Positions 1-43,071 of a stretch of DNA of 64,000 nucleotides are shown piece by piece. Made by a program: the position numbers and the translations under genes. Numbering within the stretch: the stretch's first letter is position 1; every line of letters starts with the position of its first letter. The notes beneath the pieces were generated by a model. The model was not told the origin of the DNA. It searched no databases and worked only from the letters and a program-made list of their open reading frames with translations. The stretch comes from an uncultured Bacteroidales bacterium (lineage in GTDB: Bacteria; Bacteroidota; Bacteroidia; Bacteroidales; Paludibacteraceae): positions 82,012 through 146,011 of the forward strand of contig CACWNR010000002.1 in the NCBI GenBank assembly GCA_902762355.1, in the 5' to 3' direction.

Positions 1-3000
1 TAATATAGCCATTGAAGAAACTGTCTGCACCACCGATACGCAGACGGTAAGCACCTAACTCGGTCTCAGCCGGAATGGTGAATACGCAGCTCAGTGTGGT
101 CGGTTGGCTCTCCGAAGATTCACCACTGAATACAACCTCGGAAGCCTCGAACGCCAGGTTCTTGTTCCAGTCTACCCAGATAACCGTACCGTAGGTATAA
201 CCCGTACTATACGTGATCAGGATCGAATCAATCCCATCTGCATGAGCTACAAACTCAATAGCCTTGTTATCTGCATAGAACGGAGCTGCTGTCGGATGGA
301 TGTCGGTATAAGCATCTTCCTCGTTGAATGCGATAGCAATAATACCACTACCGTCTATCGATGTCGGAGCCGGAACGCAGTAACCTACATGAGCAGAAAC
401 CATACGGAAGTCGCTGTGATCACTCTCGCCGCAGTATGCGCGTACGTAGAAGTCGTAATCGTTGTCGATATTCAGCGTGTCGATCGTAATCGTCAGCGCC
501 TCAATCGGCTCAACGCCCTCCCAGTTCGGCTCTTCGCCGGAGAGTACACATACTACCTGGAAGAATGTCTCTTCGCCACCTGCCGTCCAGTCTAACTTAA
601 CGGAGTTAGCAGAGAGTACTTCTGCATCCAGACTTGCCGGCTTGATACAAGACGGGGTAGTTGTAAAGAATACGGACTCACTCCACTCTGTCGGATCCAC
701 ACCGCAGACGCCTTGTGCCTGAGCCTCGTACTTCGTCTCAGCTGTAAGGCCTTCGATGGTCAACTCTTTTACGAGAGAATTACCACCTTCTTGCCACTCG
801 CCGGCAGGAGTTGCAGCACCCAAGAGTACAATGTCATCAATGTAGAGATAGTATGCATTATCCGAAGTACACTTGATACTGATGTACTTGGTACCCTCAG
901 GAACCGTAACACTATATTGATGCCACTGTTGATCGTCAGCCGTTACTTCCGCTTCGAATGCAAACGAAGAAGTTGCATTGTCGGTAGAACTGAAACCAAC
1001 CTCGAATGATTCTGCATAAGAAGATGAGTAATTCTTATAGTAGAATTCCAGCGTAGCATCGGCATCAATACCGGCGATTTCAGGAGAAATCAAGTACTGC
1101 GGAGGAAGAGTAGTATAGTTGAAACGGAAGCCGTTCGAGCCGGTGTGAGCGGCGGAGCTGTTGATTCCTGTAGAAGACTGAGCATTGCTCGTAGTCCAGC
1201 CACCTATACCGTCCTCAAAGCCTTGCTCTAAGAGTACATTGTCCAAAGCTGCCGTTCTGTAACGAACATTATAGCTGTCGTTGGCGCCTACGTTCCATGC
1301 AATCTTAGCCGAGCGTGCCGCAATTTCCGAAACGCTTAATTCGCCCGGAACAGGACAGTTAGCCAAGGTCGAGAAACTGATGCTGCTTGTCCATGCGCTA
1401 TTGCCATCGGCACCGCAGTTATCACGAACCCATACATAATAGGTCGTCTCTGCCTCAAGACCCGCAAAAGCATACTCAGCCTCTGCGATATTGCTGATGA
1501 GGCTGTCACCTTCCGGAGCCTCCGGCAACTCGTTGATCTTGCTATAGAACAACTCGAAGCCTTCGTGCAACTCATTCTCTGCAGCTACCCAAGTTACGAT
1601 AGCTGCATCGCTTGCCAACGAAGCAACGTCTACAGCCAGACCGCTCGGTGCAATATTGCCGGCGATGGTAGTGAAGGTCGCTTTGTTTGTGCTCCAATAG
1701 CTTACGCTTTCCTCACCGCATTTTGCACGTACATATGCATAGTAGGTCTTATTAGCCAACAGACCATCAATGATAGCAGGATTAGACGTTACGTTATAGA
1801 TGTTTGCCACGTTGGTCACCGTATCCGGGTTGAAGGCGGCAATCGTATCTACTACGATCTGCCATTCGTTCTGACCCTCTTCGCCGTTCGTCCAGCTCAA
1901 CGTAGCCGTGTGAGCGGTCTTGGCATCACATTTCGGAGCAGCAGGTTTCAGACAGGTTGGAACCAAGCCTACGAAGACATCATCAATACTCAAGTAATAG
2001 TTGTCATACGTACCTCCTTCATACTTGAAAGCGATACGGCTACCGGCAGGTGCATCCGCAAAGAGAACATCCTTCTCTGTCAGAGCGCTTGTTTGCGGGC
2101 AATCGAGAACAGAAACGAAGGTGCTTGCATCTGCAGGGTCAGTCATATATCCTACATGCAACGTACCATTAGAAGCACCTGTTCCTTCATTGCGATAGGT
2201 GAAGGTGAGCTGCAGCGCAGAGATATTCTCAGCAAACTCCGGTAAGATTGTGTACAACGGCGTGGTCTTGCTCGACTTGAAGAACAAGCAATTGCCGGAT
2301 ACTGCATAACCACTATTGGAACTGATGAATACCTGCGGATAGCTGCTCGAAGATGCAGCACGATTCAAGAACTGCCAACAGGTCGGAAGTTGGTCATCCG
2401 GATAACCGGCAGGAACAGACGCACTGGTAGAACCGGTATATCCATTGAAGTCTTCTTTCCAACCGGAAGCTGCAGAAACAGCCTCACACTCAGTGGCGAA
2501 GATTGTGGAAATAGCGGCACTCTGCGAGAATTCGTTGTAGTACGAACGAATGTATACTACATAACTGCTACTTGCCGTAAGCTCATCCAGTGCAACCGAG
2601 GTAACATTCTCTACAAGAACTGCTTTTTTCCAATCGGCAGCAGAGCCGGCAGGCAGTACTACGTATTGATACTTCGTAATCGCCTCATCAGCCGCAGCTG
2701 TCCAAGAGAGAGTAGCCGTGGTCGTAGTGATGTCCTCTACTTGCGGAGCCGTCGGAGCCTTGCAGAACGCTGCGAAGGATTTCTTCACAGAAGCACTTCT
2801 GTCTTCTTCTCCACAGTAAGCACGTACGTAGAAGTCATAGTTGACACCGGAAGCCTTGCCGCTGATCGTAACGGTGAAGATGTTCGCATCCAGCAGCGTC
2901 CAGGCCTCTACCTCTGCGTCTTTCGCAACGCAAGCGTACTCGAATTGATTCTCAGCGCCACCTGCGGTCCAAGAGAACGTTGCACCATCCGGGAGGATAA

Positions 3001-6000
3001 CCGGTTCCGCTACCACCGGAGCCATACAAGACGGAATGGTGGTGAAGAATACAGACTCTTCGCTCCACTCGGTCGGGTTAGTACCGCAGACACCTTGTAC
3101 CTTAGCCTCATACTTCGTCTCCGGCTCAAGACCGCTGATGGTCAACTCTTTTACGAGAGAATTACCACCATCTTGCCACTCGCCGGCAGGCGTAGGAGCA
3201 CCGAAGAGCACAATGTCATCAATGTAGAGATAGTACTTATCATAAGAAGTACACATGATGCAGATGTATTTCGTACCGGCAGGAACGGTAGCACTGTATT
3301 TGTGCCACTGCTGATCACTAGCCGTTACCTCATCACCAAATGCAAACGAGGAAGTAGTTTTATCTGTAGAACTGAAACCAACTTTGAATGTTTCCTCATA
3401 TGTAGATGATTCATTATTGTAGTAGAACTCCAACGATGCATCAGCATCAAGACCGGCGATTTCCGAAGAAATCAAGTACTGATTAGAATAAGCCCAAGAG
3501 AATGTGAAGCCACTCGCACCGGAGTGAATGCCATTGGTAGAACTGCTGATTCCGGTACTGGACGCAGGATTGCTTGTAGTCCAGCCACCCATACCATCCT
3601 CAAAGCCTTGCTCTAAGAACGCATTGTCCAAAGCAGCCGTTCTATAACGAACATTGTAGCTATCGTTGGTACCTACGTTCCATGCGATCTTAGCCGAGTG
3701 TGCCGCAACTTCCGAAGCGCTCAATTCGCCCGGAACAGGACAGTTAGCCAATGTCGTGAAGCTGAAGCTTACCCAAGCGCTATAGCCATCGGCACCGCAG
3801 TTATCACGAACCCATACATAATAGGTCGTCTCAGCGTCCAAACCGGAGAGTACCTTGAAGGTATCCGCAATGTTCGTAAAGAGGCTATCGCCTTCCGGAA
3901 TCTCCGGCAACTCGTTGATCTTGCTATAGAACAAATCGAAGCTTGCGTGCAGATCATTCTTTGCAGACACCCAAGTAACGGTAGCTGCATCGCTTGCCAA
4001 CGAAGCACCGTCAACCGCCAAACCGCTCGGCACGATATTACCGGCGATAGTCGTGAAGGTTACTTTCTTCTTGCTCCATGCGCTAAAGCCATCCTCACCG
4101 CAGTTTGCGCGTACGTATGCATAGTAGGTCTTATTAGCCAACAGACCATCAATGATAGCAGGATTAGACGCTACGTCAATGATTCTTGCTGCATTAACCG
4201 TATCCGGGTTGAAGGCGGCAATCGTATCGACTACAATCTGCCATGCATTCTGGCCCTCTGCACCGTTCGCCCAGCTCAACGTAGCCGTATGAGCGGTCTT
4301 AGCGTCACATTTCGGATCAGCCGGCTTCTGACAAGTCGGAATCGGACCGACTACTACATCATCAATACTCAAGTAATAGTTGTTAGACGAACCTCCTTCA
4401 TACTTGAATGCGATATAGCTACCGGCAGGCGCGTCCGCAAAGAGCACTTCTTGCTCCGTAAGCGTAGTTGTCTGCTCACAGGTATGAACAGAAACGAAGG
4501 TGCTTGCATCAGCAGGATCAGTCAAATATCCTACATACAACGTACCATTAGAAGAACCTGTTCCTTCATTGCGATAGGTGAAGGTGAGCTGCAGCGCAGA
4601 GATATTCTCAGCAAACTCCGGTAAGATAGCATACAACGGCGTGGTACTGCTGGACTTGAAGAACAAGCAGTTACCGCTTACTGCATAGCCACTATTGGAA
4701 CTGATGAATACCTGCGGATAGATATTCGTCGTTGTCGCACGATTCAAGAACTGCCAACAGGTCGGAAGTTGGTCATCCGGATAACCGGCAGGAACAGACG
4801 CACTGGTAGAACCTGTATATCCGTTGAAGTTCTCATTCAAAGCCGAAACGGCATCACACTCGGTTTGGAAACTAATGCCACCCACCCACGGGCTTTGGTC
4901 ACTATCGCCACAATGTGCGCGCACCCATATATAGTAAGTAGAAGAGGGGTTCAAACCACTCTGAATCTCCTTATCGGAGGTTCCCTCGATAGAAGGAATA
5001 GTCTCTGCGGTCGGAGCTACATTCTCGGTCGAGTAATAGATATCCCAAGCTATTTCAGAATCACCAGCCGTCCATGTAAAGGTAGCAGAAGTCGTTGTTG
5101 CAGAGGCGAAAGCCAAGCCACTCGGCTCCAAGCATGACGGAACATCCTCTACAACGATATCGTCGATGTAAGCACCGTTGTATGTTCTGCTTGATGTAGC
5201 CGCATCAATCATAATGGCGATATAATTACCTTCGCCGGTTAAGTTGATGGTGAACTTCTGGTAAGAAGTCGTCAGTGCGATTTCTTCACCAATCTGAACA
5301 AAGGTAGAAGCATCTGCGGGATCAGTCATTCTACCAATCTTTATGGTGCTACTTTCATTATAACCACGTGCCCAGAAAACAATACGCTTATTCGTTTCAA
5401 AATTCATGACCGGCATGATCGCATACTGCGGCTGCGGATCATAACTACTACTCCAACTGCTGTAATAAGAATAGAACCTTAAGCTATTGTTTGGAGAATG
5501 CGAATAATCGGTATACGAATTATAATACATTGTCGGATACCACTTGTAATCTGAAGAAGTAGATGTGTTAATTGCACTCCAACAAACAGGAAGGACTCGT
5601 GCAGTTGGTGTATATACCGAAGCTATATCAAAACTATCGAAGTTCTCACTCAAAGCCGAAACAGCTTCGCACTTGGTTTGGAAACTAATGCCACCAATCC
5701 AGTCGCTACGATCAGTTTCATTACAATGCGCACGTACCCATACGTAATAAGTAGAAGAGGGGTTCAAACCACTCTGAATCTCCTTATCGGAGGTTCCCTC
5801 GATAGAAGGAACAGTCTCTGCGGTCGGAGCTACATTCTCGGTAGAATAGTAGATATCCCATGCGATCTCACCACTCTCGCCGGCTTCCCAGTTCAAGATA
5901 GCAGAATTCGTTTCTGAAGATACGAAAGCCAAACCGCTCGGTTTCAGACAAGCGGGGAGTTCACGAACTACCAAGTTGTCGAAGTTCGTTGATGCTCCAT

Positions 6001-7315
6001 ATTCGCTCACGCCTAAGATGAAGATACGACCTTCTCCACTGATCGGCAACGTGAAGTTGTACGTATACCAGCCATCGGCAGCTTCAGCTGCAATACCGTC
6101 CGCAGTATTGGCTACTTGGCGCTCACGAGGAATAAAGCCTAACAGCACTGTATCTGCTAACTGAGAGGTAGGACTAACATAAATTCGTAAACCTTCGTTA
6201 TTCTTCATGGTAGAATAATATTTACGATATACGTCAATCACAAACTCGTACCCATCAGGGAAAGTCATTACAGGCAGTGACAACAACGTCTTGTTACCCG
6301 AACTCATATCCGGCAATTGAACATACTTTGTGCTATTGCCACCGAGCGCTGTGGTTTCTACCTTGAACACAGAGGTACTACTACCTGCTATATGCTCGTT
6401 CTCCCAGCAAGTAATATCAAGATCGCCAGCTTCTCGTTCGTCGAAGTTCTCACTCCAACCGGAAGCGACAGAAACAGCTACACACTTAGTTTTGAAACTA
6501 AACGTAGAGCTCCACTCGCTATAATCCTCGCCTCCGCAGAATGCGCGAACGCGAACATAATAGGTAGTACCCGGAGTCAGATCTTCCAACAGTCCTGCTT
6601 CGCCTTCAATAGCAGAGGGCGCTTGCGGATCGGTGAAATCTTCACTTGTTGAATACTCCAAGTCATAACTCTCTGCACCAGCAACAGGATCCCACACAAT
6701 TAATGCCTCAGTCGGGTCTGCATCACCATCCAAGGCCAGATTTTTCGGTCTCGGGCAGGCATCCTCTTTTATAGAAACACCCGTTACATCATCCAAGTAG
6801 AGAGAGGAGCCATCGTTGTCTACTACGTGGAAAGCAACATAGATTTCTTGACCTGCGTAGGCACTCAGATCAATCACTTTCTCCACCCAGCTACTGGCAG
6901 AAGTGGTTCCAATCGTTCCACTCGAACCGGTGGTGTACGTTTCCAGCGTGGTTGTAAACGATGCAGCCTCAGCCGTTGTCGTTGAAACCTCAATGGTCAG
7001 CGTTGTTCCTGCATAACTCTGTGAAGCAACATAAAAGGACAAACTCTCGCCATCTGCCGGTAGAAGTTTCGGCGTAACGAGGTAATTCTCGTGTCCTGGC
7101 GAAGAAGCATAATTCACATAAGCACATGCAGCTCCCTCGTGATGGTACGAAGAATTACGTTCCCAACTCTTGCTACCGGAAATATGGATAGACTTCCATC
7201 CATCCGGAGCAAATGTTGCATCCTCAAAGCCTTCATTCAGTTGTTCTGCTCTAAGAGTAAACGGCAAACATAGCATCGCCGTTAAGAGCAAGAAAAGAGA
7301 ACAAATCTTTTTCAT
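1..7315 (-). CDS. Giant secreted choice-of-anchor-J / fibronectin type III surface protein (C-terminus beyond window)
   Basis: The minus-strand frame is open from the ATG at 7315 to base 2 (2,438 codons, no stop), so the C-terminus and any sorting tail lie outside the window. Residues 1-23 are a signal peptide (MKKICSLFLLLTAMLCLPFT...). Next comes a jelly-roll 'choice-of-anchor J' module opening with NEGFEDATFAPDGW and ending near LYLDDVTGVSIKEDACP, then Fn3 modules with the signature TTYYVRVRAFCGGEDYSEWS. The two types alternate, with about ten Fn3 copies. Similar modules occur in cleaved adhesins and other T9SS cargo. Two large internal duplications (periods about 2.38 kb and 813 bp) built the gene. 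Function is unproven; an adhesin or matrix protein is likely. Confidence 0.85.
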   Translation of the reverse strand, partial: MKKICSLFLLLTAMLCLPFTLRAEQLNEGFEDATFAPDGWKSIHISGSKSWERNSSYHHEGAACAYVNYASSPGHENYLVTPKLLPADGESLSFYVASQSYAGTTLTIEVSTTTAEAASFTTTLETYTTGSSGTIGTTSASSWVEKVIDLSAYAGQEIYVAFHVVDNDGSSLYLDDVTGVSIKEDACPRPKNLALDGDADPTEALIVWDPVAGAESYDLEYSTSEDFTDPQAPSAIEGEAGLLEDLTPGTTYYVRVRAFCGGEDYSEWSSTFSFKTKCVAVSVASGWSENFDEREAGDLDITCWENEHIAGSSTSVFKVETTALGGNSTKYVQLPDMSSGNKTLLSLPVMTFPDGYEFVIDVYRKYYSTMKNNEGLRIYVSPTSQLADTVLLGFIPRERQVANTADGIAAEAADGWYTYNFTLPISGEGRIFILGVSEYGASTNFDNLVVRELPACLKPSGLAFVSSETNSAILNWEAGESGEIAWDIYYSTENVAPTAETVPSIEGTSDKEIQSGLNPSSTYYVWVRAHCNETDRSDWIGGISFQTKCEAVSALSENFDSFDIASVYTPTARVLPVCWSAINTSTSSDYKWYPTMYYNSYTDYSHSPNNSLRFYSYYSSWSSSYDPQPQYAIMPVMNFETNKRIVFWARGYNESSTIKIGRMTDPADASTFVQIGEEIALTTSYQKFTINLTGEGNYIAIMIDAATSSRTYNGAYIDDIVVEDVPSCLEPSGLAFASATTTSATFTWTAGDSEIAWDIYYSTENVAPTAETIPSIEGTSDKEIQSGLNPSSTYYIWVRAHCGDSDQSPWVGGISFQTECDAVSALNENFNGYTGSTSASVPAGYPDDQLPTCWQFLNRATTTNIYPQVFISSNSGYAVSGNCLFFKSSSTTPLYAILPEFAENISALQLTFTYRNEGTGSSNGTLYVGYLTDPADASTFVSVHTCEQTTTLTEQEVLFADAPAGSYIAFKYEGGSSNNYYLSIDDVVVGPIPTCQKPADPKCDAKTAHTATLSWANGAEGQNAWQIVVDTIAAFNPDTVNAARIIDVASNPAIIDGLLANKTYYAYVRANCGEDGFSAWSKKKVTFTTIAGNIVPSGLAVDGASLASDAATVTWVSAKNDLHASFDLFYSKINELPEIPEGDSLFTNIADTFKVLSGLDAETTYYVWVRDNCGADGYSAWVSFSFTTLANCPVPGELSASEVAAHSAKIAWNVGTNDSYNVRYRTAALDNAFLEQGFEDGMGGWTTSNPASSTGISSSTNGIHSGASGFTFSWAYSNQYLISSEIAGLDADASLEFYYNNESSTYEETFKVGFSSTDKTTSSFAFGDEVTASDQQWHKYSATVPAGTKYICIMCTSYDKYYLYIDDIVLFGAPTPAGEWQDGGNSLVKELTISGLEPETKYEAKVQGVCGTNPTEWSEESVFFTTIPSCMAPVVAEPVILPDGATFSWTAGGAENQFEYACVAKDAEVEAWTLLDANIFTVTISGKASGVNYDFYVRAYCGEEDRSASVKKSFAAFCKAPTAPQVEDITTTTATLSWTAAADEAITKYQYVVLPAGSAADWKKAVLVENVTSVALDELTASSSYVVYIRSYYNEFSQSAAISTIFATECEAVSAASGWKEDFNGYTGSTSASVPAGYPDDQLPTCWQFLNRAASSSSYPQVFISSNSGYAVSGNCLFFKSSKTTPLYTILPEFAENISALQLTFTYRNEGTGASNGTLHVGYMTDPADASTFVSVLDCPQTSALTEKDVLFADAPAGSRIAFKYEGGTYDNYYLSIDDVFVGLVPTCLKPAAPKCDAKTAHTATLSWTNGEEGQNEWQIVVDTIAAFNPDTVTNVANIYNVTSNPAIIDGLLANKTYYAYVRAKCGEESVSYWSTNKATFTTIAGNIAPSGLAVDVASLASDAAIVTWVAAENELHEGFELFYSKINELPEAPEGDSLISNIAEAEYAFAGLEAETTYYVWVRDNCGADGNSAWTSSISFSTLANCPVPGELSVSEIAARSAKIAWNVGANDSYNVRYRTAALDNVLLEQGFEDGIGGWTTSNAQSSTGINSSAAHTGSNGFRFNYTTLPPQYLISPEIAGIDADATLEFYYKNYSSSYAESFEVGFSSTDNATSSFAFEAEVTADDQQWHQYSVTVPEGTKYISIKCTSDNAYYLYIDDIVLLGAATPAGEWQEGGNSLVKELTIEGLTAETKYEAQAQGVCGVDPTEWSESVFFTTTPSCIKPASLDAEVLSANSVKLDWTAGGEETFFQVVCVLSGEEPNWEGVEPIEALTITIDTLNIDNDYDFYVRAYCGESDHSDFRMVSAHVGYCVPAPTSIDGSGIIAIAFNEEDAYTDIHPTAAPFYADNKAIEFVAHADGIDSILITYSTGYTYGTVIWVDWNKNLAFEASEVVFSGESSESQPTTLSCVFTIPAETELGAYRLRIGGADSFFNGYI
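645..2440 (-). repeat. Intragenic segmental duplication, copy 1
   Basis: This part of the giant surface gene recurs at about 3025-4823 in the same frame. The offset is 2,379-2,385 bp (about 795 codons). Anchor pairs are 1261 with 3646 and 2371 with 4750. It covers several anchor-J and Fn3 modules. Confidence 0.8.
3025..4823 (-). repeat. Intragenic segmental duplication, copy 2
   Basis: Second copy of the block at 645-2440. Divergence is mostly scattered substitutions, and the frame is preserved throughout. A smaller duplication follows (about 4830-5150 against 5643-5960, offset 813 bp or 271 codons). Confidence 0.8.
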
Positions 7316-9673: not shown

Positions 9674-9705
9674 CAAATGTACTGCTTTTTTTGCATATAC
9701 GCAAA
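9674..9705 (-). promoter_or_regulatory. gldJ-gcvH promoter
   Basis: Minus strand: TTTG (9705-9702), a 20-nt spacer, then TACATTTG (9681-9674). It lies 67 bp upstream of the gldJ start. Confidence 0.85.
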
Positions 9706-9757
9706 TTTTTATTAAAATTTTTTGCTATTTTACGCATATTTCGGCAATTTTTACTAT

Positions 9758-10032
9758 TTCGGACGCCGCCTTCCTTCGGAATTCCCCCGAAATTACGTTC
9801 GCGTCCTGCGGTACATATACCTCATAACGAGCTCTTTTTTCTGCATATTACTCCTTCCGTCGTGTATGATTATAGACAGCCTTCGCGTCAGCGGGATAGC
9901 ATGTACTCTCTCGGGGGCCTGTTTTGACGAAGGGGTACGTCAAAACTCGTAGGCAGGGGGCCGGTACCCCGAAGAGTAGCATGCGCTATCCGCATGTTCT
10001 AAGGCTGTCTATAATCGCGGTGTAGACACCGC
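9758..10032 (+). ncRNA. Candidate structured noncoding element, copy A
   Basis: There is no reading frame worth calling here. The element has three parts. (1) A core at 9758-9811 opens TTCGGACGCCGCC, continues ATTCCCCCGAAA, and can pair TTTCGG with CCGAAA. (2) A long imperfect hairpin spans 9868-10016: its outer stem is a perfect 16 bp (GATTATAGACAGCCTT with its complement), its middle helix joins 9890-9916 with 9968-9994, and its tip is GTTTTGACG/CGTCAAAAC. (3) A terminal hairpin GCGGTGT-AG-ACACCGC (10017-10032) is followed by an A-rich stretch. The same plan with different stem sequences occurs at 21849-22189 (minus), and a core alone occurs at 29288. Direction of transcription is inferred from that copy. 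Confidence 0.55.
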
Positions 10033-10056
10033 CTTGCAAAAAAAAGTGCTCAAAAC

Positions 10057-10087
10057 TTGCATATGTGCAATTTTTGTAGTAACTTTG
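10057..10087 (+). promoter_or_regulatory. folP-cdaA promoter
   Basis: Plus strand: TTG (10057-10059), a 20-nt spacer, then TAACTTTG (10080-10087). The leader before the folP ATG is about 20 nt. Confidence 0.85.
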
Positions 10088-10113: not shown

Positions 10114-10854
10114 ATGAATGTGCAAATTATGGCGATTGGCAACGTGACGCCGGACAGTTTTTATGCCGCGTCCCGACTGGCGGATACCGATAAGGTAGTC
10201 GCTTGGGCGAGACAGGCGCTGGCGGATGGAGCAGACATCCTCGATATCGGCGGATGCTCGACCCGTCCGGGCAGTACACCTGCCTCCGAAGCAGAAGAAT
10301 GGGCACGGCTCGAACCGGCGTTGGCGGCCATCCGGCAGCACTTCCCCGATACGCCCCTTTCGCTCGATACCTTCCGTCCGGAGATTGCTCGCCGTGCGCT
10401 GGAGCAGTTCGGCCCGATGACGATCAACGACATTTCCGGCGGATGCGAAGCGATGTATGAGGTGGTGCGCGCGTTCAAGGTACCGTATATTTGGACTCTC
10501 CGCGGCGATCTGGATTTGCCCAAAAAGATGCCGCATGTATGCAATATCGAAGGGCTGATCCTCGATCCGGGATTCGGCTTCATCGGCAGTACGGAAGCGG
10601 ATTATGAGTGCATGCGGAAGATGGACTGCCTTCGCGCCTATAACAAGCCCATCCTCGTGGGCGTGAGCCGCAAATCGATTGTATGGCGACCACTCGGGTT
10701 GACGCCGGAGACCTGTTTGAGCGCCACCCAAGCGCTGCAGTTATACGCCATCGAGCACGGTGCAACAATTATTCGCACACATGATATCAAAGAAACTAAA
10801 CAAACAATAGCGATATGCAATTATTGGCTTTTAACTTCGGATTCAAAGATGTGA
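10114..10854 (+). CDS. folP: Dihydropteroate synthase
   Basis: Condenses p-aminobenzoate with 6-hydroxymethyl-dihydropterin pyrophosphate in folate synthesis (cytoplasm). All family landmarks are present in order: NVTPDSF (loop 1), DIGGCSTRPGS (loop 2, with Cys where Glu is common), SLDTFRPEIA, INDISGG, DPGFGF, KPILVGVSRKS and IIRTHDI. At 246 aa it is somewhat short for the family (about 270-280), mainly because the N-terminus starts directly before the first strand. Its 3' end overlaps the start of cdaA by 40 bp, so the two genes are co-transcribed and probably translationally coupled; folP next to cdaA is a common arrangement in Bacteroidota. Confidence 0.93.
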   Translation: MNVQIMAIGNVTPDSFYAASRLADTDKVVAWARQALADGADILDIGGCSTRPGSTPASEAEEWARLEPALAAIRQHFPDTPLSLDTFRPEIARRALEQFGPMTINDISGGCEAMYEVVRAFKVPYIWTLRGDLDLPKKMPHVCNIEGLILDPGFGFIGSTEADYECMRKMDCLRAYNKPILVGVSRKSIVWRPLGLTPETCLSATQALQLYAIEHGATIIRTHDIKETKQTIAICNYWLLTSDSKM

Positions 10855-20561: not shown

Positions 20562-21701
20562 TTAAAATAATTCGCCACTCCAAAGCATTTTGAGGAAATC
20601 AAAAAGATAAATCACTTCGATGTTACCTACGCGACGCGTGATCGGATCGCGGGACACGACGATACAACGACTACTCGGAAACTCTTCACCATACTCTTTA
20701 AAATTACTCATATGCTTGCTTTGCACCTCTTCGGTTGATTTGATCTCGATACCGATTTCAGCATCTCCAATAACGGCATCTACTTCTTTTCCATTATAGG
20801 TATGCCAATAACTCAGTTTTTTGCGGTTATGCGAATAACCTATATACGCTATCAGTTCTTGTATCACGAAGTGCTCAAAGCAATGTCCGTATTCCGATGT
20901 ACCGGGAGCCAAAGATGTACGGTTTAGCAGATGGTTATAGACTCCCACGTCGAAGTAATAGAACTTCGGTGCTTGTACCACCTTGCGTTTTACGACCTTC
21001 GTATAGGCAGGAATAGTGTAGCCGATTAATGTATCTGCTAAAATAGAAAAGTATTCCTTCACTGTCTTGGCTGAGACTTGACAATCATTGGCGATTTTTT
21101 CGTAGTTCACGATGTCTCCGTCGCAGGTGGCCGCCACTTCCATAAATCGCTCGAAAGCGTCTAAATTGCGCACCAGCGACTCCTCTTTGATCTCTTCGCG
21201 CAGATAGACGTCAATATATCCGTCCAAAAGTCGTTCCGGCTTCTTTGCCAAATAATGAGGCGGCAATAGACCATACAACAAGGCCTTGTCCAAATCCAAG
21301 TCCGCTATCTCGGCACTGACAAAAGGATAGAAATAACATGGAAGAGCTCTCCCACCTAAGGTATTATGCCCCTTTCGTTTGAGCTTGCGTGCACTACTTC
21401 CGCATAACACAAACCGCAATCCTTTCTTCTGGATAAGACGATGTACCTCATTCAATAACTCCGGCACGAAGGGAATCTCATCTATCACCACAATACTGCC
21501 TTCCGGCTTATCTTGCAGCATCTCATACAGCAATTCAGGCTTCGCGCTAAAACGACGTCGCAACTTGGCATCCAACAAGTCGATATACACGGCATCAGGA
21601 AACTGCGCCTCAAGGAACGTACTTTTGCCTGTCTGACGCGCACCGAACAGGAATACACTTCCATCTAACTCGTTGTTTAACTGACAAATACGATTAATCA
21701 T
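20562..21701 (-). CDS. AAA ATPase with DUF4143 (AAA_14 family)
   Basis: Predicted P-loop ATPase of the AAA_14/DUF4143 family, widespread and expanded in gut Bacteroidales, with no established function. Walker A is FGARQTGKSTF (about residue 20) and Walker B is SIVVIDEIPF, followed by VLCGSSARKL. A winged-helix stretch (NYEKIANDCQVSAKTVKEYF) comes next. The C-terminal half keeps a PD-(D/E)XK nuclease-like signature, EVDAVIGD...GIEIKST. I use the Met at 21701 (MINRICQLNNELDG); the longer frame from 21728 runs back into the leader repeats. Two more complete members and one stump are in the window. Confidence 0.8.
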   Translation of the reverse strand: MINRICQLNNELDGSVFLFGARQTGKSTFLEAQFPDAVYIDLLDAKLRRRFSAKPELLYEMLQDKPEGSIVVIDEIPFVPELLNEVHRLIQKKGLRFVLCGSSARKLKRKGHNTLGGRALPCYFYPFVSAEIADLDLDKALLYGLLPPHYLAKKPERLLDGYIDVYLREEIKEESLVRNLDAFERFMEVAATCDGDIVNYEKIANDCQVSAKTVKEYFSILADTLIGYTIPAYTKVVKRKVVQAPKFYYFDVGVYNHLLNRTSLAPGTSEYGHCFEHFVIQELIAYIGYSHNRKKLSYWHTYNGKEVDAVIGDAEIGIEIKSTEEVQSKHMSNFKEYGEEFPSSRCIVVSRDPITRRVGNIEVIYLFDFLKMLWSGELF

Positions 21702-21720
21702 ATTATATGTTTTGCAATAA

Positions 21721-21790
21721 AAATCCAAAGTTCTACTCCTGATATTTCATAAAAATCCGAAGTACTACTTCCGATATTTCTTTAAAATCC
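21721..21790 (-). repeat. Tandem 32-bp repeats in the ATPase leader, with a palindrome
   Basis: Two 32-bp units (21721-21752 and 21753-21784) and the first six bases of a third lie between promoter and start codon. The second unit carries the perfect palindrome GAAGTA-C-TACTTC (21759-21771), which looks like an operator; the first unit has a degenerate version. Confidence 0.6.
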
Positions 21791-21794
21791 GCTG

Positions 21795-21826
21795 CAAAGA
21801 TACTACAAAAATTGCATATATGCAAG
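21795..21826 (-). promoter_or_regulatory. Promoter of the AAA ATPase / dehydrogenase unit
   Basis: Minus strand: CTTG (21826-21823), a 20-nt spacer, then TATCTTTG (21802-21795). Confidence 0.85.
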
Positions 21827-21848
21827 TTTTTGTGTATTTTTTTGACGG

Positions 21849-22189
21849 GCGAAATATAATTTCGCGATTGTTAAAGAGCCTAAGGCCATTCGGATAGGTG
21901 TGTTCGTGTATGCAACTCTTCAGGGACAACTCACCCCCTGTTCGACGACTCTCGCGTTCCCCATCCGCTCGAGACGGTCCCTAAAGAGTTCATACACTCA
22001 CAGGGGAAGAAGGGAACATACCTATACGTCGGGGACGAGGCTCTTTAATAATCACACAGCTGAGTGTAACGAAGCGGACGGCAAAAAATGCACCCCTTGC
22101 ATATATCCCGCAGGATGCGAACGTATTTTCGGGGGAATTGGTGAGCGAGGAGAGAAACGACGAGCGAACCAAGGCGGCGTCCGAAGGTA
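21849..22189 (-). ncRNA. Candidate structured noncoding element, copy C
   Basis: Reads on the minus strand with the same plan as copy A at 9758. The core (22189-22108) opens TACCTTCGGACGCCGCC and later has ATTCCCCCGAAA, with a longer insert (about 34 nt) between. A spacer follows, then a 188-nt imperfect hairpin (22053-21866): outer stem ATTATTAAAGAGCCT against AGGCTCTTTAACAAT, middle helices 22018-22032 with 21892-21906, and an inner helix GTGTATGAACTCTTTAGGGAC against its near-complement. A terminal hairpin GCGAAAT-TAT-ATTTCGC (21865-21849) and an A-rich tract close it. Stem sequences differ from copy A while pairing is kept. A near-consensus promoter overlaps the 5' end. Confidence 0.58.
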
Positions 22190-29287: not shown

Positions 29288-29338
29288 TACCTTCGGACGC
29301 CGCCTGCCTTTGGCATTCCCCCGAAAGTACGTTCGCAC
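29288..29338 (+). repeat. Noncoding element core, solo copy B
   Basis: Carries TACCTTCGGACGCCGCC and ATTCCCCCGAAAGTACGTTC as in elements A and C, preceded by CTTG with a 20-nt spacer (29264-29287), but no long hairpin follows. The rest of the gap 29178-29556 holds nothing else that I can name, except ACAAAGTGTAT at 29198, which is shared with the upstream blocks at 49378 and 62621. Confidence 0.6.
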
Positions 29339-29556
29339 GTTTGTGCGCTGAAAGTACAAAATATTTGTAGTTACGGCTCTCATATGGAAATACTGAATAC
29401 AATTTTGACCAGTCCAAGGACGGTAATTACACCTCAATGGTTAACGCTGATTGCCGGAACACAGGCATAACCCTTCCTCTCCGGATTCGCACTTGCGCAA
29501 CTGAAGCTTATTTATCACAATATGTCAAAGAGCATTCAGCTTTTCAGCTTTTGTAA

Positions 29557-37720: not shown

Positions 37721-40700
37721 TTATTGTTTCATAACCTTAACTACGATGCCATCCACAGAGATCATGTAGTTACCTTGCGGATAACCGCTCATCTCCACGC
37801 TTGTCTCGTTGCCCTCGAAGGTCGTGTTCATTACTTCAACGCCCATGAGGTTGACGATACGCAGGTTGTGATTCCATTCGAGCGAATTTTCGATAGCAAC
37901 GGTTGTGGTATTGACAACCGGGTTCGGGTAAGCACGAACGACAGGAGTCTGTGCTTGCTGACCTGCACCATAGAGGGTCTCCATGTCGGATTGACCGCAG
38001 GTATAGGTCGGTTCGCCGTTCATGTTCGCTTTAACGAAGTATTCACCGGTCAGTTTACCATCCGTGTGGTAGTAGTAGCCGGTTGCACCCGGTATCGGCT
38101 CCCACGGGTCGGAACTGTTAGCACGCCAGTACCACTGGATATCGGTCAGACAGTTGCAGGTATCAACCAATGCGATCACGTTGTCGAACAGCGGACGAAC
38201 AAAGGTCTCCGGCAAGTTGACATGGAAGGTGACGTTGAACTGCTGTGATTCAAGCCAATCGAAGCGGCTGTCACGGAAGTAAACGGTCATCGTGTAATCG
38301 CCTGTCGGCAGATCCACCGGAATATCGATATCGATCGTTCCGTCCTTACCGGTCGTCACGAGGTTAGTCCAATCGACGTCTGTGAAGCGGCTGTCGGCGA
38401 AGTCAATCTTATACTGATCCGGGTTACCGCTATTGAGATGGTACTTGAGGCTGTAGCCGCTACCGTCGCAATAACCGTACGCATAGACATCGATACCTTC
38501 CTTAACCTCTACTTGCTCTTCCTCTCCCGGTTGGTGCTCGTTGTCCGGGATGAACGGTTCGATGATCACACCTTCGGTGGTGAAGATCTCGGATGTCGGA
38601 TCGAGGTTGTAGTTATTGAGCAGAGCGTCATCGCCGGTCAGTTCGTAGAACAGGGTGATGGTCAGGTGCTCTGCTACGTCTGCACTGCTGAAGGCAGCGG
38701 TGGTGACGTGCGCAATCGGATCGTTCAGTTTGATACCGTTGAGGACACCTTGGTTGGTGACATCCGCAATAGCGTGTCCGTCTGCGAACTTAGCGTTATG
38801 AGCCTCTGCACCGGAAACATAGACGTGTGCTTTGTTAACCGTCAGTGTACCATCGACGAAGGTGATCTCGTAGTCGTATGCATCGACACCCTTCGGCGTG
38901 ATGACGTACGTACCGATCGGGCTACCCGGCGCATAAACGCAGTCGTAAGCCTGTGTGCCGAGCAGTACGCTCTTGTCGTCGTTACCGAACCATCCGGCGT
39001 ACGAAACGGTGAACTCAGGATGTTCATCGCCGTAGATCATCTCTTTGTCCTCTGCGGTGATGGTGAGCGGAGCCTTGTTGATCGTGAAGTCAACCGTCAG
39101 CGTGTCGATATAGTTACCGATGAAGGCTACGATCGCGGTGTAGTTACCTACGTGCGTCGGAGCGGTCTCGGACTCAGCATAGATGCTTTGATCAGCTGCA
39201 ACGCCCTTGAAGGTCAGTACGTAGTCTTGTGCTTCCGTCAGCACGAGCGTCGTATCCTTGACGATGATCGTCGGGCGGTTCACCTCAGCATCGTAAACGA
39301 GAACCTCGTTATCTGCCTGTTTCGCCGCGATGTCTGCATCCTTAGCGGACTTGCGGTTGACAGTCAGCGTACCGTTGACGAAGGTGATCGCGTAGTCGTG
39401 TGCATCCACACCGCTCGGGATGATGGTGTAGTCACCTACGTTGTTACCGCGAACGTATGCGCAAGCATAAGCTTGAACACCGGTCAGTACGGTAGCCGTG
39501 TCAGTACCTTGCCAGCCTTCGTACGAAACAGTGAACTCAGGAGCATACTCACCGAAGGTGATGGCTTTGTCCTCAGCCGTGATGGTGAGAGGTGCTTTGT
39601 TGATCACGAAGTCAACCGTCAGCGTATCCTTGTAGTTACCGATGAAGGCTACGATAGCGGTGTACTCGCCTACGTGCGTCGGAGCGGTTGCGCTCTCGGC
39701 GTACTCGGTGTTACCGCGACCGATGAAGGTCAGCTTGTAATCCGTGTTCTCGGTCAGCACGAGCGTCGTATCCTTCACGATGATGGTCGGCTTGTTCGCC
39801 TCTGCATCGTAAACGAGTATCTCGTCATCTGCCTGTTTAGCTGTGATGTCATCGCTCTTAGCGGACTTGCGGTTAACGGTGAGTGTACCGTTGACGAAGG
39901 TGATCGCGTAGTCAGCAGCATCGACACCACTCGGGGCGATCACATACTCGCCAACAGGGCTACCCTTCACATAATCGCAAGCGAAGGCGATCGTGCCGGT
40001 GAGAACCGATGCACCATCCTCGCCGAGCCAGCCAGTATAGGTAACGGTGTACGTCGGGATGTTCTCGCCGAAGATCACGGTCTTGTTATCTGCGGTAGCG
40101 GTCAACTCAGCCTTGGCGATCGATACCGTCACCGGAGTAGCGATGATCGAGTCGAGGTGGTTGCCGTCACCCAATACCTTATAATATACCTCGTACGTGC
40201 CTACGTGTGTAGCCTGCGGCAGTTCGCCGTCGTACTCACCTTGCACGCCGAGTCTGTAAACGAACTGACCGTCGTTGGTCGTACCGGCAGTGATCAGGGT
40301 CTGATCCGCTGCGGTATAGGTCAACTCGTTCGCTACCGGAGCAACGTATGCTACTTTCGCTTTGTTGACGGTGAGGGTACCTTTGATGAACTGGATCGCG
40401 TAGTTAGCCGCATCCACACCACTCGGAACGATGTCATAAGGGCCTACATTGCTCAGCGGAGCGTAGGTACAAGCGTAAGCGATCGTGCCGGTGAGAACCG
40501 ATGCATCGTCGGTGCCATGCCAGCCTGCGTAAGTCACGCTGTAAGCCGGGATCGGGTCGCCGTAGATGACGGTCTTGTCATCGGCGGTAGCGGTGAGCGC
40601 AGCCTTGGCGATCGTTACTGCTACCGGTTGGTCATAATCGTGGTCGTTATGGTTGCCGTCACCCTTGACGCGGTAATATACATTGTATATACCGGCTTCT

Positions 40701-42481
40701 TTAGCCTCCGGCAGAGCGGTTTGCCAACTCTCGGCAGCACCGGTCAGGCTGTAGTACATCGTACCGCCCATCGGTTGACCGGCAATGATCAGGGTCTGGT
40801 TAGCACCGTTGTAAACGAGGGTGTCGAATGCAACCGGAGCGATACAACCGGACTCAGCCTTAGCAACAGTTACCTTACCGTTAACGAAGGTGATGGTATA
40901 GTTAGCAGCACTTACACCACTCGGAGTGATGGTGTACTCGCCTACGTTGCTCGTCGGAGCATACGTGCAAGCGAATGCGATGTCACCGGTCAGCACTGTT
41001 GCATCGTCGTCGCCTTGCCAGCCGGCATAGGTAACGGTGTATGCAGGTACAGCGTCGCCGTAAATAACATTCTTATCATCCGCAGTAGCGGTCAACTCTT
41101 CCTTGGCGATCGTCACAGCAACCTGAGTAGCTGCAACGGAATCGAGGTGGTTGAGGTCACCCTGTACGCGGTAGTAAACACTATACGTGCCGGCATCTTT
41201 TGCCTGCGGCAGTTCAGCCTTCCAGCTATCCAACAGGGTCGGATCGAGACTATACTCGAAGGTACCATCGTTGGTCTGACCGGCAGCGATGAGGGTCTGG
41301 TTAGATGCGTTATAAACGAGGTTTTCAACAGCCGTCGGAGCGGTGTAAGCAACCGGAGCCTTGGCGATCGTCACATTGATCGGATCCGCGATGTAGTCCG
41401 CGTGTCCCTCGCGCACGAGCTTATAATATACTACGTACGCGGCCGCGAAGGTAGCCTTCGGCAGTTCGGTACTCCATTCGCCGTCGTTGAGACGATACTC
41501 GATATGACCTTCCTTGGCCACACCGGCGGTAATCAGAGTCTGCGCCGTTCCGTTATACATGAGCGAATCGTATGCCACCGGATTGGTGGTGATGATCGGT
41601 GTATAAATAGCCTTGATGCGGAGACCTTCTTCAAGGAAGTCGCCTGCTTTGACATCCCAGCGAACGAACTCGTAACCGTTGAAGTCAGGAGCCGGATTCG
41701 GGATATGGAGCAGGGCTACTTTCTCGTTCTTGAGTTCGCCGTCCTTACCGATATACGATACGTTGTGCTCAATCAGCGCTACGAGATCTGCCCAAGCCTG
41801 CTCGGCGTTGGTGAGTTTTGCTACAACTTCGGCATCTACCAATGCTTTGGAAGCATCGATCAGTGCGTCGTATTTCTCGCGAGCGGTCTCGATAGCAGCT
41901 TTGACAGCCGGGTCATAAACAATCTCAGCCGGAATTGCCTCAATTGCTGCGATAGCATCCAGTGCTGCGTATTGTGCCGCAGCGTCGGTCATTTTCTGTA
42001 CGTCAGCGTCATCCAGTGCACCCTTGGCTGCATCGCTCAATTGTTGGTATGCCACGAGAGCTGCTGCGATAGCTGCGCCGCTCGTCGGATACTCAACCGG
42101 AGTCGGGATTGCATCAATCAGGTCTTTGACAGCCTGTGCCGAATCCAGCGGAGTAGCAGAAGTACCGTTAACGGTGAACGTAATCATATCTGCAACCCAG
42201 TAGTTGGTAAAGGACTGACCCTTCCAAATCGATACGGAATCTGCATTACCTGTCCACGTAGCGGTTTTATTTCCATTGCTGATTACCCATCCGCTACCCA
42301 TTCTATCTACCTCTGTCATAGTAGAAGTAAGCGCAGTAGTGGATTCGATGACAACTTTCGTAATATTGGTGCCATTCTCATTCGCAAAGATATAACCACC
42401 ATTGGGCTGACTGTAGAAGGTGAAGTACAATCGATTTTGATACGTCGAGAACGAACTACCGTTACCAACGGTGACGGTCAT
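37721..42481 (-). CDS. C-terminal part of a giant T9SS-exported adhesin (MBG/Ig-like repeats)
   Basis: 1,586 codons with no signal peptide: it continues the frame broken at 42509-42512. The first ~100 residues are a beta-rich module (TVTVGNGSSFSTYQ), then helical AxxAYDAL modules (about 110-240), then alternating Ig-like units (VYNGANQTLIIAGQPMGGTM) and MBG/YDG units (LTATADDKTVIYGDPIPAYS) to about residue 1330. After a PKD/fibronectin-like part, the last 75 residues are a textbook T9SS type-A sorting domain (YPNPVVNTTTVAI, LRIVNLMGVEVM, MSGYPQGNYMISV, VVKVMKQ). The chain is thus a cell-surface or secreted product. Confidence 0.85.
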   Translation of the reverse strand: MTVTVGNGSSFSTYQNRLYFTFYSQPNGGYIFANENGTNITKVVIESTTALTSTMTEVDRMGSGWVISNGNKTATWTGNADSVSIWKGQSFTNYWVADMITFTVNGTSATPLDSAQAVKDLIDAIPTPVEYPTSGAAIAAALVAYQQLSDAAKGALDDADVQKMTDAAAQYAALDAIAAIEAIPAEIVYDPAVKAAIETAREKYDALIDASKALVDAEVVAKLTNAEQAWADLVALIEHNVSYIGKDGELKNEKVALLHIPNPAPDFNGYEFVRWDVKAGDFLEEGLRIKAIYTPIITTNPVAYDSLMYNGTAQTLITAGVAKEGHIEYRLNDGEWSTELPKATFAAAYVVYYKLVREGHADYIADPINVTIAKAPVAYTAPTAVENLVYNASNQTLIAAGQTNDGTFEYSLDPTLLDSWKAELPQAKDAGTYSVYYRVQGDLNHLDSVAATQVAVTIAKEELTATADDKNVIYGDAVPAYTVTYAGWQGDDDATVLTGDIAFACTYAPTSNVGEYTITPSGVSAANYTITFVNGKVTVAKAESGCIAPVAFDTLVYNGANQTLIIAGQPMGGTMYYSLTGAAESWQTALPEAKEAGIYNVYYRVKGDGNHNDHDYDQPVAVTIAKAALTATADDKTVIYGDPIPAYSVTYAGWHGTDDASVLTGTIAYACTYAPLSNVGPYDIVPSGVDAANYAIQFIKGTLTVNKAKVAYVAPVANELTYTAADQTLITAGTTNDGQFVYRLGVQGEYDGELPQATHVGTYEVYYKVLGDGNHLDSIIATPVTVSIAKAELTATADNKTVIFGENIPTYTVTYTGWLGEDGASVLTGTIAFACDYVKGSPVGEYVIAPSGVDAADYAITFVNGTLTVNRKSAKSDDITAKQADDEILVYDAEANKPTIIVKDTTLVLTENTDYKLTFIGRGNTEYAESATAPTHVGEYTAIVAFIGNYKDTLTVDFVINKAPLTITAEDKAITFGEYAPEFTVSYEGWQGTDTATVLTGVQAYACAYVRGNNVGDYTIIPSGVDAHDYAITFVNGTLTVNRKSAKDADIAAKQADNEVLVYDAEVNRPTIIVKDTTLVLTEAQDYVLTFKGVAADQSIYAESETAPTHVGNYTAIVAFIGNYIDTLTVDFTINKAPLTITAEDKEMIYGDEHPEFTVSYAGWFGNDDKSVLLGTQAYDCVYAPGSPIGTYVITPKGVDAYDYEITFVDGTLTVNKAHVYVSGAEAHNAKFADGHAIADVTNQGVLNGIKLNDPIAHVTTAAFSSADVAEHLTITLFYELTGDDALLNNYNLDPTSEIFTTEGVIIEPFIPDNEHQPGEEEQVEVKEGIDVYAYGYCDGSGYSLKYHLNSGNPDQYKIDFADSRFTDVDWTNLVTTGKDGTIDIDIPVDLPTGDYTMTVYFRDSRFDWLESQQFNVTFHVNLPETFVRPLFDNVIALVDTCNCLTDIQWYWRANSSDPWEPIPGATGYYYHTDGKLTGEYFVKANMNGEPTYTCGQSDMETLYGAGQQAQTPVVRAYPNPVVNTTTVAIENSLEWNHNLRIVNLMGVEVMNTTFEGNETSVEMSGYPQGNYMISVDGIVVKVMKQ

Positions 42482-43071
42482 ACCTTCGTATGCAGGACTG
42501 GTAGTATTGGGGTTACCATTGGTTTCTGGTATGCGTTCAGAGCGTCGTATGCCGCGCGTGCGTTCTGTATCGAATCGCGCGTAGCGAGCTTCAGCGTAAC
42601 CGGCTGCGGGATAGCAGCAATCTTAGCGGTTACTGCGTCTGCGCCGGCTTGGATCAATGCCGTGTAATCAGTGATAGTCTGATTCAGTTTATTAACGGTA
42701 GCTTCATCAAGGGCACCCTGAGTAGCTTCGCTCAGTGCGTCATAAGCAGCACGGGCATCCTCAATCGCCTTTACGCAAGCAGCATCAAGCGTTACAGGAA
42801 CAGGAATAGCCTCAATCAGGTCTTTGACAGCCTGTGCCGAATCCAGCGGAGCAGCACCTCCACCTTCAGTTACCAGACGGACCATGCAACCATACGCGCG
42901 ATTGGTGCCGGTACAAGCGCTTTGAGACTGATTGTAGTAAATTGTGAATACATACGAAGTATCATTATTCAACGAGGTGGAACTGCTATATTTAGCATCA
43001 TTTGCTATCAATGCATATATGCCATTGCGAGCAGGGCCAGAAGGCAGGAACACCGCACCGGCGTTCTCCAT
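42478..43071 (-). CDS. Middle fragment of the same giant adhesin
   Basis: The frame begins inside a FISUMP-type lectin-like module (MENAGAVFLPSGPARNG ... GCMVRLVTEGGG), with no signal peptide, and continues into two helical modules (LIEAIPVPVTLDAACVKAIE; ARAAYDALSEATQGALDEAT). It then runs out of frame at NAYQKPMVTP. The frame is open upstream to the C4 tract at 43124-43127, and adding one C there joins it to the previous fragment (FLPPDPDNFTTNVYSGDDW). One C added at 42509-42512 joins it to the next (MVTPNTTSPAYEGMTV). It is not an independent gene. Confidence 0.8.
   Translation of the reverse strand: MENAGAVFLPSGPARNGIYALIANDAKYSSSTSLNNDTSYVFTIYYNQSQSACTGTNRAYGCMVRLVTEGGGAAPLDSAQAVKDLIEAIPVPVTLDAACVKAIEDARAAYDALSEATQGALDEATVNKLNQTITDYTALIQAGADAVTAKIAAIPQPVTLKLATRDSIQNARAAYDALNAYQKPMVTPILPVLHTKV

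Follow-up and report, generated by a model that had tools for sequence, protein, structure and literature searches.

Two places in the genome of an uncultured Bacteroidales bacterium fold into long hairpins whose stems differ in sequence and keep their pairing, which raises the question of whether they are genes for a structured RNA or something else. The window analysed, 64,000 nucleotides in full, belongs to a metagenome-assembled genome (MAG) of 1.94 Mb in 36 contigs that is 75.9% complete. The initial annotation had described copy A as a core, a 149-nt hairpin and a terminal hairpin, and had proposed "a new Bacteroidales ncRNA family or a protein-less mobile element". All of the described parts are present in A, with the core starting at 9758, a perfect 16-bp outer stem (9868-9883 with 10001-10016) closing the long hairpin, and the terminal hairpin directly after it. 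In the second copy, B, which lies on the minus strand, the parts follow one another in the same order, and the stem-base differences quoted between the two copies are correct. The fold of A is better than that of shuffled sequences (z = -5.07; 0 of 200 shuffles as good), and the signal is weaker for B (z = -1.77; 3 of 100). A truncated third copy at 29292 amends the count of two; the limits given for the unit are also too narrow, since the right-end rule extends A to 10087 and B to 21795. The features are as follows.

9758-10087, plus strand: complete element A, 330 bp, within the folP promoter, delimited by the left-end/right-end rule and absent from 23 other loci
9732-9757, plus strand: remnant of the old folP promoter left of A, resembling the promoter at the empty orthologous site L103
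9758-9791, plus strand: left-end hairpin TTCGG..CCGAA with a C-rich internal loop and a variable tip
9792-9796, plus strand: guide-like motif nnTAC (ATTAC), with family-wide covariation with the right-end GTAnn
9868-10016, plus strand: long body hairpin with the 16-bp outer stem, showing paired changes relative to the orthologous copy L169
9899-9995, plus strand: module H of copy A, the inner hairpin, also dispersed alone (model R1, 96.3 bits; this copy is in the model's alignment)
10017-10032, plus strand: terminal hairpin GCGGTGT-AG-ACACCGC; by reading, other large copies have different yet paired bases
10057-10087, plus strand: predicted right-end promoter of A, TTGCATATGTGCAATTTTTGTAGTAACTTTG, from the right-end rule
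10114-10854, plus strand: folP-like gene downstream of A (open reading frame; Pfam PF00809, E = 1.5e-49)
21795-22185, minus strand: element B, complete at 391 bp and preceding the ATPase-like gene at 20562-21728 (left-end/right-end rule)
21902-21995, minus strand: module H in B (model R1, 59.5 bits; this copy is in the model's alignment)
21795-21825, minus strand: predicted right-end promoter of B (right-end rule)
29292-29335, plus strand: third copy, left end only; L195, which occupies the same site, has the body and right end that this copy lacks

Open reading frames called mechanically across A and B are small (84, 92 and 114 aa) or part of neighbouring genes. A search of the window with the covariance models of Rfam 15 returned a tRNA only and no family for A or B; permissive settings added one chance-level match near A (best E = 0.79) and none near B. 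On the absence of an Rfam match and on the empty folP sites, 6S or another known RNA was rejected; the initial annotation had already argued against a housekeeping RNA such as 6S. Of its two proposals, the protein-less mobile element is borne out by empty orthologous sites, near-identical copies in unrelated places, the number of copies and the lack of an Rfam family, whereas the case for an ncRNA family is not made, the downstream genes being functionally mixed. We put at roughly 0.8 the probability that A and B are non-autonomous mobile elements, that A splits a promoter which its right end rebuilds, and that movement follows a guided single-stranded route. The long hairpins first seen look like the interior of mobile elements rather than stand-alone RNA genes.

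Reading of the loci revealed a common order: a left hairpin TTCGG..CCGAAnnTAC comes first, then a body that is structured but varies, and last a right end with the sequence of a Bacteroidetes promoter (TTG..GTAnnTTTG). The left hairpin has the family form TTCGG..CCGAAnnTACGTTCGC, and the core usually begins this arrangement. A fixed extraction rule yielded 121 sequence-distinct elements, orthologous copies included, a lower bound because the rule was tuned to the main left-hairpin variants and other variants exist. Right ends were assigned to 116 elements, 114 of them 111-391 bp long and two at 523 and 673 bp; the right end of L041 is false by reading, and tandem copies share one right end. 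Sizes cluster near 112 bp and at 133-169, 183-280 and 306-391 bp, with bodies that differ between classes. A and B are large forms, and their long hairpin contains the separately dispersed palindrome H. The element is short, multi-copy and non-coding, as MITEs are, and has no terminal inverted repeats; its ends share only the 5-bp complement GTAnn/nnTAC. Judged from its sequence, it is a small piece of mobile DNA that encodes no protein, occurs in bacteria of the rumen and gut, and has a putative replacement promoter on its far end. We call it undescribed because no description was found in the open-licence literature searched and Rfam gave no match, which is the whole basis for the word.

The distribution of the element is narrow at the level of strong matches. 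A DNA search with copy A gave matches in 34 of 61 genus genomes at E 0.01, in which the core and the inner hairpin often occur separately. The exact core pattern was found in 107 stretches of GTDB species genomes, and the 80 of the 107 that were examined are all assigned to Paludibacteraceae, Candidatus Colicola or Bacteroidales. A model search of 200 family genomes, which scored at most 14 candidates per genome, matched 36 genomes at E 0.001, of which 32 are of the same genus, and strong matches were confined to one Paludibacteraceae genus. Four other genera gave one marginal match each (E = 6.1e-4 to 9.5e-4), as did the same-genus genomes G010 and G037, and at least three same-genus genomes gave no match. 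Weak matches to model R2 are mostly plain promoters, because that model contains a promoter. No match to the exact core pattern was found in viral contigs, nor to copy A by blastn in phage or plasmid records.

Comparison of orthologous loci indicates where A was inserted. We read 24 folP loci, the window's included, of 30 taken from 59 genomes with a folP match. All 23 other genus loci (L100-L122; L104 is partly masked) have a short promoter and no element, and a contig of an uncultured Bacteroidales MAG of a further species (L169) has an element at the same site. The empty-site promoter at L103 reads GCATATTTCGGCAAATTTTACTACCTTTGCACCG, the flank left of A reads GCATATTTCGGCAATTTTTACTA and the right-end sequence reads ACTTTGCACCG; the old folP promoter was therefore split at its -7 box, and a new -33 region came with the element, as did the first bases of a -7 box. 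The aligned loci show A interrupting the predicted folP -7 box (empty site GTAnnTTTGC or like), with the old promoter staying on the left, and they show a putative -33/-7 region at A's right end joined to the old downstream DNA, so that the split promoter is rebuilt in sequence. The sigma-ABfr consensus is TAnnTTTG at -7 and TTTG at -33 in the part of its description consulted (PMC7366714). At a second site, a NifU-like gene on contig C5, none of 17 relatives (L316-L332) has a complete element directly upstream; L318 has the same upstream gene end and a plain promoter, and L316 has a left-end fragment further upstream. The empty-site comparison covers these two sites, folP (copy A) and the NifU-like gene.

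Similar copies in dissimilar surroundings indicate movement between sites. Two elements of genome G003, L030 and L065, have unrelated flanks and share 96% identity across a 353-bp stretch that includes module H. Between genomes, 112-bp elements that stand in different contexts reach 98% identity (L144/L153 and L045/L146). Tandem arrangements with two left ends and one common right end occur at L033, L129, L168 and L217. By reading, several copies per genome carry the same right-end variant (G003, G021, G042), and the right end therefore seems to travel with the element. The left flank equals the right end over 28-32 bases in three of 116 copies; nine of the 116 agree at 27 or more of 32 bases (1.1 expected), and 14 share at least the last 10 (4.0 expected; maximum 11 in 2000 shuffles). 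Such long identities would not by themselves be predicted by an element-borne right end, and they count against it. One of the three sites with 28-32 identical bases is common to two species (L195 and the window). L195 is a complete orthologue of the third copy in the window, whose body and right end were apparently lost between two copies of TTTGTGCG. The truncated element lies at 29292-29420, with the ends of the deletion inside the repeat TTTGTGCG.

Right ends lie close to the starts of genes. Of 112 elements, 109 have an open reading frame that starts within 300 nt of the right end, at a median distance of 32 nt, compared with 61 of 103 and 62 of 112 in controls; frames of 80 aa or more were counted, as were those of 40 codons or more when open at the end. 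In 12 of 116 elements, several of which are orthologous pairs, a tRNA gene is found no further than 200 nt from the right end. Elements stand directly before tRNA genes (Lys, Gln, Pro, Arg, Met) at L147, L148, L154, L164, L191, L194 and L198; at those loci the right end of the element would serve as promoter of the tRNA gene. A Pfam scan covering 70 of 99 downstream proteins (10 were omitted by hand) returned 89 families, none of them dominant, and on this mixture a leader of one regulon was rejected. The commonest family, AAA_14, occurs in four of the 70, perhaps by chance; an ATPase-like gene follows B.

At E 1e-4, 18 of the 61 genus genomes contain module H, both within large elements and alone, and G003 has similar large elements with H (L064, L065) and without it (L084). 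At 15 places chosen for having H but no core, a simple ORF caller placed a gene downstream in 13, in 12 of which this gene runs in the opposite direction, and H lies within 20 nt of that gene's end in 8 of 15, a placement that we take to be REP/ERIC-like. Other small repeats were seen in and around the elements. A third palindromic repeat of about 60 nt (CTCGGTYGGC..GAAGCCAAAAGTCAATTGGCTTC) occurs at L006:211-437, L011:1392-1615, L092:1210-1604, L316 and L317, and in L006, L011 and L092 it sits in the loops of element hairpins, as palindromes nested in palindromes. The H copy at L096:1550-1670 (G025:C17) has an additional hairpin inserted in its apical part. At about 405-487 of L135 (G021:C38), tandem 30-bp units TTCGGACGCCTTGCAAAAATTTGTAGTAAC consist of the first bases of the left end and a right-end-like promoter.

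The covariation noticed between two copies is strong when more are compared, above all in the inner hairpin. Across 25 copies of module H, both partners have changed in 18 of 20 pairs, where shuffles give 11.0 (0 of 500). A covariation score of 0.561 compares with 0.231 (sd 0.017; 0 of 500), although related rows inflate scores of this kind, and there is no excess of further pair types (27 against 27.3; 335 of 500). For the left hairpin and hairpin 2 the score is 0.199 against 0.058 (0 of 500), with no excess of pairs changed on both sides (7 against 6.7) or of pair types (16 against 14.6). Between A and its orthologue L169, three outer-stem pairs and one inner-stem pair have changed on both sides, and stem 1 has changed at further pairs. 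G-T and A-C mismatches were compared as a sign of which strand is folded, and whether as RNA or DNA. A first count was mixed (25/15 in H, 13/17 in the left hairpin, 8/52 in hairpin 2 and 180/265 in the body). A second gave 15/32 in 57 elements, 8/2 in a tRNA control and 20/23 in shuffled sequences, and a third 6/2 in H and 10/25 in the short class; one conserved C-A position in hairpin 2 accounts for much of the mismatch result.

The paired changes are real, but selection on an RNA is not their only possible source: selection on single-stranded DNA and templated repair between the arms could each produce them. That such repair of long palindromes explains the changes with no selection for structure is somewhat improbable. 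It would account for changes in H that are mostly double Watson-Crick replacements (six G-T cells of 498), and for paired changes between A and L169 despite 59 of 60 identical columns at window positions 9693-9752, beyond which the next bases differ more and the folP coding part much more; it sits poorly with loops and single-stranded motifs that are largely conserved (the GGGG loop of H, the TTATGCRAGCATAA tip and TACGTTCGC). Covarying stems would also suit a structured ncRNA that acts in trans and is transcribed from the left promoter that the element has captured, with dispersal secondary, and a transcript is possible because the left end completes a -7 box (TAnnTTCG). We nevertheless think such an RNA very unlikely, given that TTG occurs at promoter spacing in only 30 of 77 left flanks, that the size classes have different bodies, that an A-run rather than a T-run follows A's terminal hairpin, and that Rfam gave no match. 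More improbable still, to the point that we would hardly expect it, is a cis-acting, riboswitch-like mRNA leader regulating the downstream gene: elements do lie directly upstream of genes on the same strand, but the folP copy has no counterpart at 23 other loci, the downstream genes are mixed and include tRNAs, and the promoter sequence lies after the element body.

How a mobile element of this kind might recognise its ends is suggested by the junctions. Junction statistics were computed first on 96 rows and then on 116 rows grouped to 77 sites. Across the 77 sites, 85 of 154 positions allow the nn of the right end to pair with that of the guide (nnTAC), against an expectation of 48.4 that none of 4000 permutations raised so far; for the left nn the count is 65 of 154 (48.0 expected; 2 of 4000). 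Left and right nn, compared with a target-site duplication in mind, are the same at 32 sites (17.7 expected; 0 of 4000) and differ at 45, and GTA directly precedes the left nn at 61. An independent count on 48 aligned short elements found 25 cells of the guide/right-end helix changed on both sides, against 9.5 (0 of 500). The helix has a covariation score, which kinship among copies can inflate, of 0.183 against 0.060 (0 of 500), and lower scores were obtained in all six slid versions; its pairs changed on both sides (2 against 2.0) and pair types (5 against 4.6) show no excess over shuffles. The motif beside the left hairpin covaries with the last bases of the right end, a pattern that a guide for recognising ends and target would produce. 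Guides of this kind are described for IS200/IS605 and REP elements in the part of PMC6006769 consulted.

We propose that the element moves as a folded single strand, in which nnTAC beside the left hairpin would pair with GTAnn at the ends and in the target, like the guides of IS200/IS605-type (HUH) transposition. Points that weigh against this reading are the 45 sites with unlike left and right nn, TTG at promoter spacing in only 30 of 77 left flanks, the lack of terminal inverted repeats, the mixed mismatch counts and the incompleteness of the genomes, which are MAGs. The enzyme would act in trans or would have been lost. Copies would persist because the downstream gene keeps a promoter, and the old left promoter may transcribe the element or decay. 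Searches of the genus genomes for Y1 enzymes and tyrosine recombinases tied no enzyme to the elements. PF01797 (Y1) matches occur in 22 of 61 genomes (18 over the cut-off) and elements in 34, with both in 12 against 12.3 expected, an insensitive comparison, as the model search finds elements missed by the DNA search in G006, G043 and G037. Element-bearing genomes include G003, G005, G025, G032, G035, G042 and G045, which have no PF01797 match, and G000, G017, G021 and G026, which have one. Within these 61 genomes and seven Y1 loci, a Y1/RAYT mobiliser was rejected. The seven Y1 loci, when searched for element ends, gave a single loose hairpin match, in L258. Among the Y1 and integrase loci that were scanned there were six weak motif matches, no clear left end and no autonomous transposon with the same ends.

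Tyrosine recombinases were sought in eight genomes and numbered two each in G003, G021 and G032, one in G042, five each in G000 and G005, four in G045 and 14 in G026. Seven recombinase sequences, two of them fragments, are XerC/XerD-like and mostly below NCBIfam cut-offs; three element-bearing genomes have XerC/XerD-like recombinases only, and the recombinases classified include no integron integrase above its cut-off. An integrase and transfer genes on the element itself are excluded by its size. Integration of a circular form at GTAnnTTTGC could instead be the work of a tyrosine recombinase, either XerC/XerD of the host or an integrase of the CTnDOT type acting in trans; the junctions would then be att sites and nn a tolerated overlap. 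We regard this as possible rather than probable. It agrees with the junctions GTAnnTTCGG and GTAnnTTTG and an empty site of the same kind, with the agreement of left and right nn above chance, and with the XerC/XerD-like proteins of element-bearing G003, G021 and G032. The insertion site also fits GTAnnTTTGC, which we take to be the CTnDOT target consensus; the string itself was not found in the open-licence literature searched. However, the integrase loci examined have no adjoining element end, and a plain att site would not predict pairing with the hairpin-foot motif. HUH-type guided movement and tyrosine-recombinase integration both remain candidates, and because of the guide pairing we lean toward guided movement. 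A particular form of it, in which nnTAC picks promoters via GTAnn, the element needs no enzymes but those of the host (such as XerC/XerD or a replication-linked nuclease) to move, and rebuilt promoters allow it to invade essential and tRNA genes while the host survives, is distinctly unlikely as a whole.

Several known systems share some of these properties. BOX and Correia elements are modular, structured, protein-free repeats near genes, and Correia repeats can create promoters; their ends and target are unrelated to those found here, and they belong to other phyla. Integron attC sites are long imperfect hairpins kept in fold rather than sequence, but our elements have a different target and no gene cassette, and they come with no integron integrase above its cut-off. 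In IS200/IS605 elements a guide pairs with an end/target tetranucleotide (PMC6006769, in part), as we propose for ours, whereas our element has its terminal hairpin at the left end only and no associated Y1 gene in the genomes and loci scanned. REP/RAYT systems, which in the same part of that source include a Bacteroidetes subclass 2.6 with atypical flanking structures, resemble it in their dispersed hairpins, in the short guide, in our elements a putative one, beside the hairpin foot and in the frequent position of H alone just past a stop codon. Our elements differ in having no adjoining RAYT gene at the loci scanned, units of 111-391 bp and a promoter end, and in them the guide-like motif comes 3' of the hairpin when read on the strand given here, and 5' of it on the opposite strand. 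The BrickBuilt MITE of Porphyromonas gingivalis, with 19 copies in one strain, is likewise an intergenic Bacteroidales element with no protein, and has promoter activity inside the element; it differs in being built of 23-nt tandem repeats with a leader and a tail, and the part of its description consulted makes no mention of insertion into a -7 box with promoter replacement (PMC4596501).

The element lands in the promoter core, also before housekeeping genes and those for tRNAs, and a promoter sequence is nonetheless left in place. Confirmation of this would explain the spread of a gene-less parasite through promoters, make promoter turnover in the lineage traceable, and provide a natural system for testing end recognition by base pairing in something other than the known HUH transposases. 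A further lesson is that an ncRNA gene need not lie behind covariation among hairpins dispersed between genes. Elsewhere in the window, positions 1-6600 and 38800-47000 hold long repeat arrays with spacings of about 2.38 kb and 1.1 kb, possibly encoding large repetitive surface proteins.
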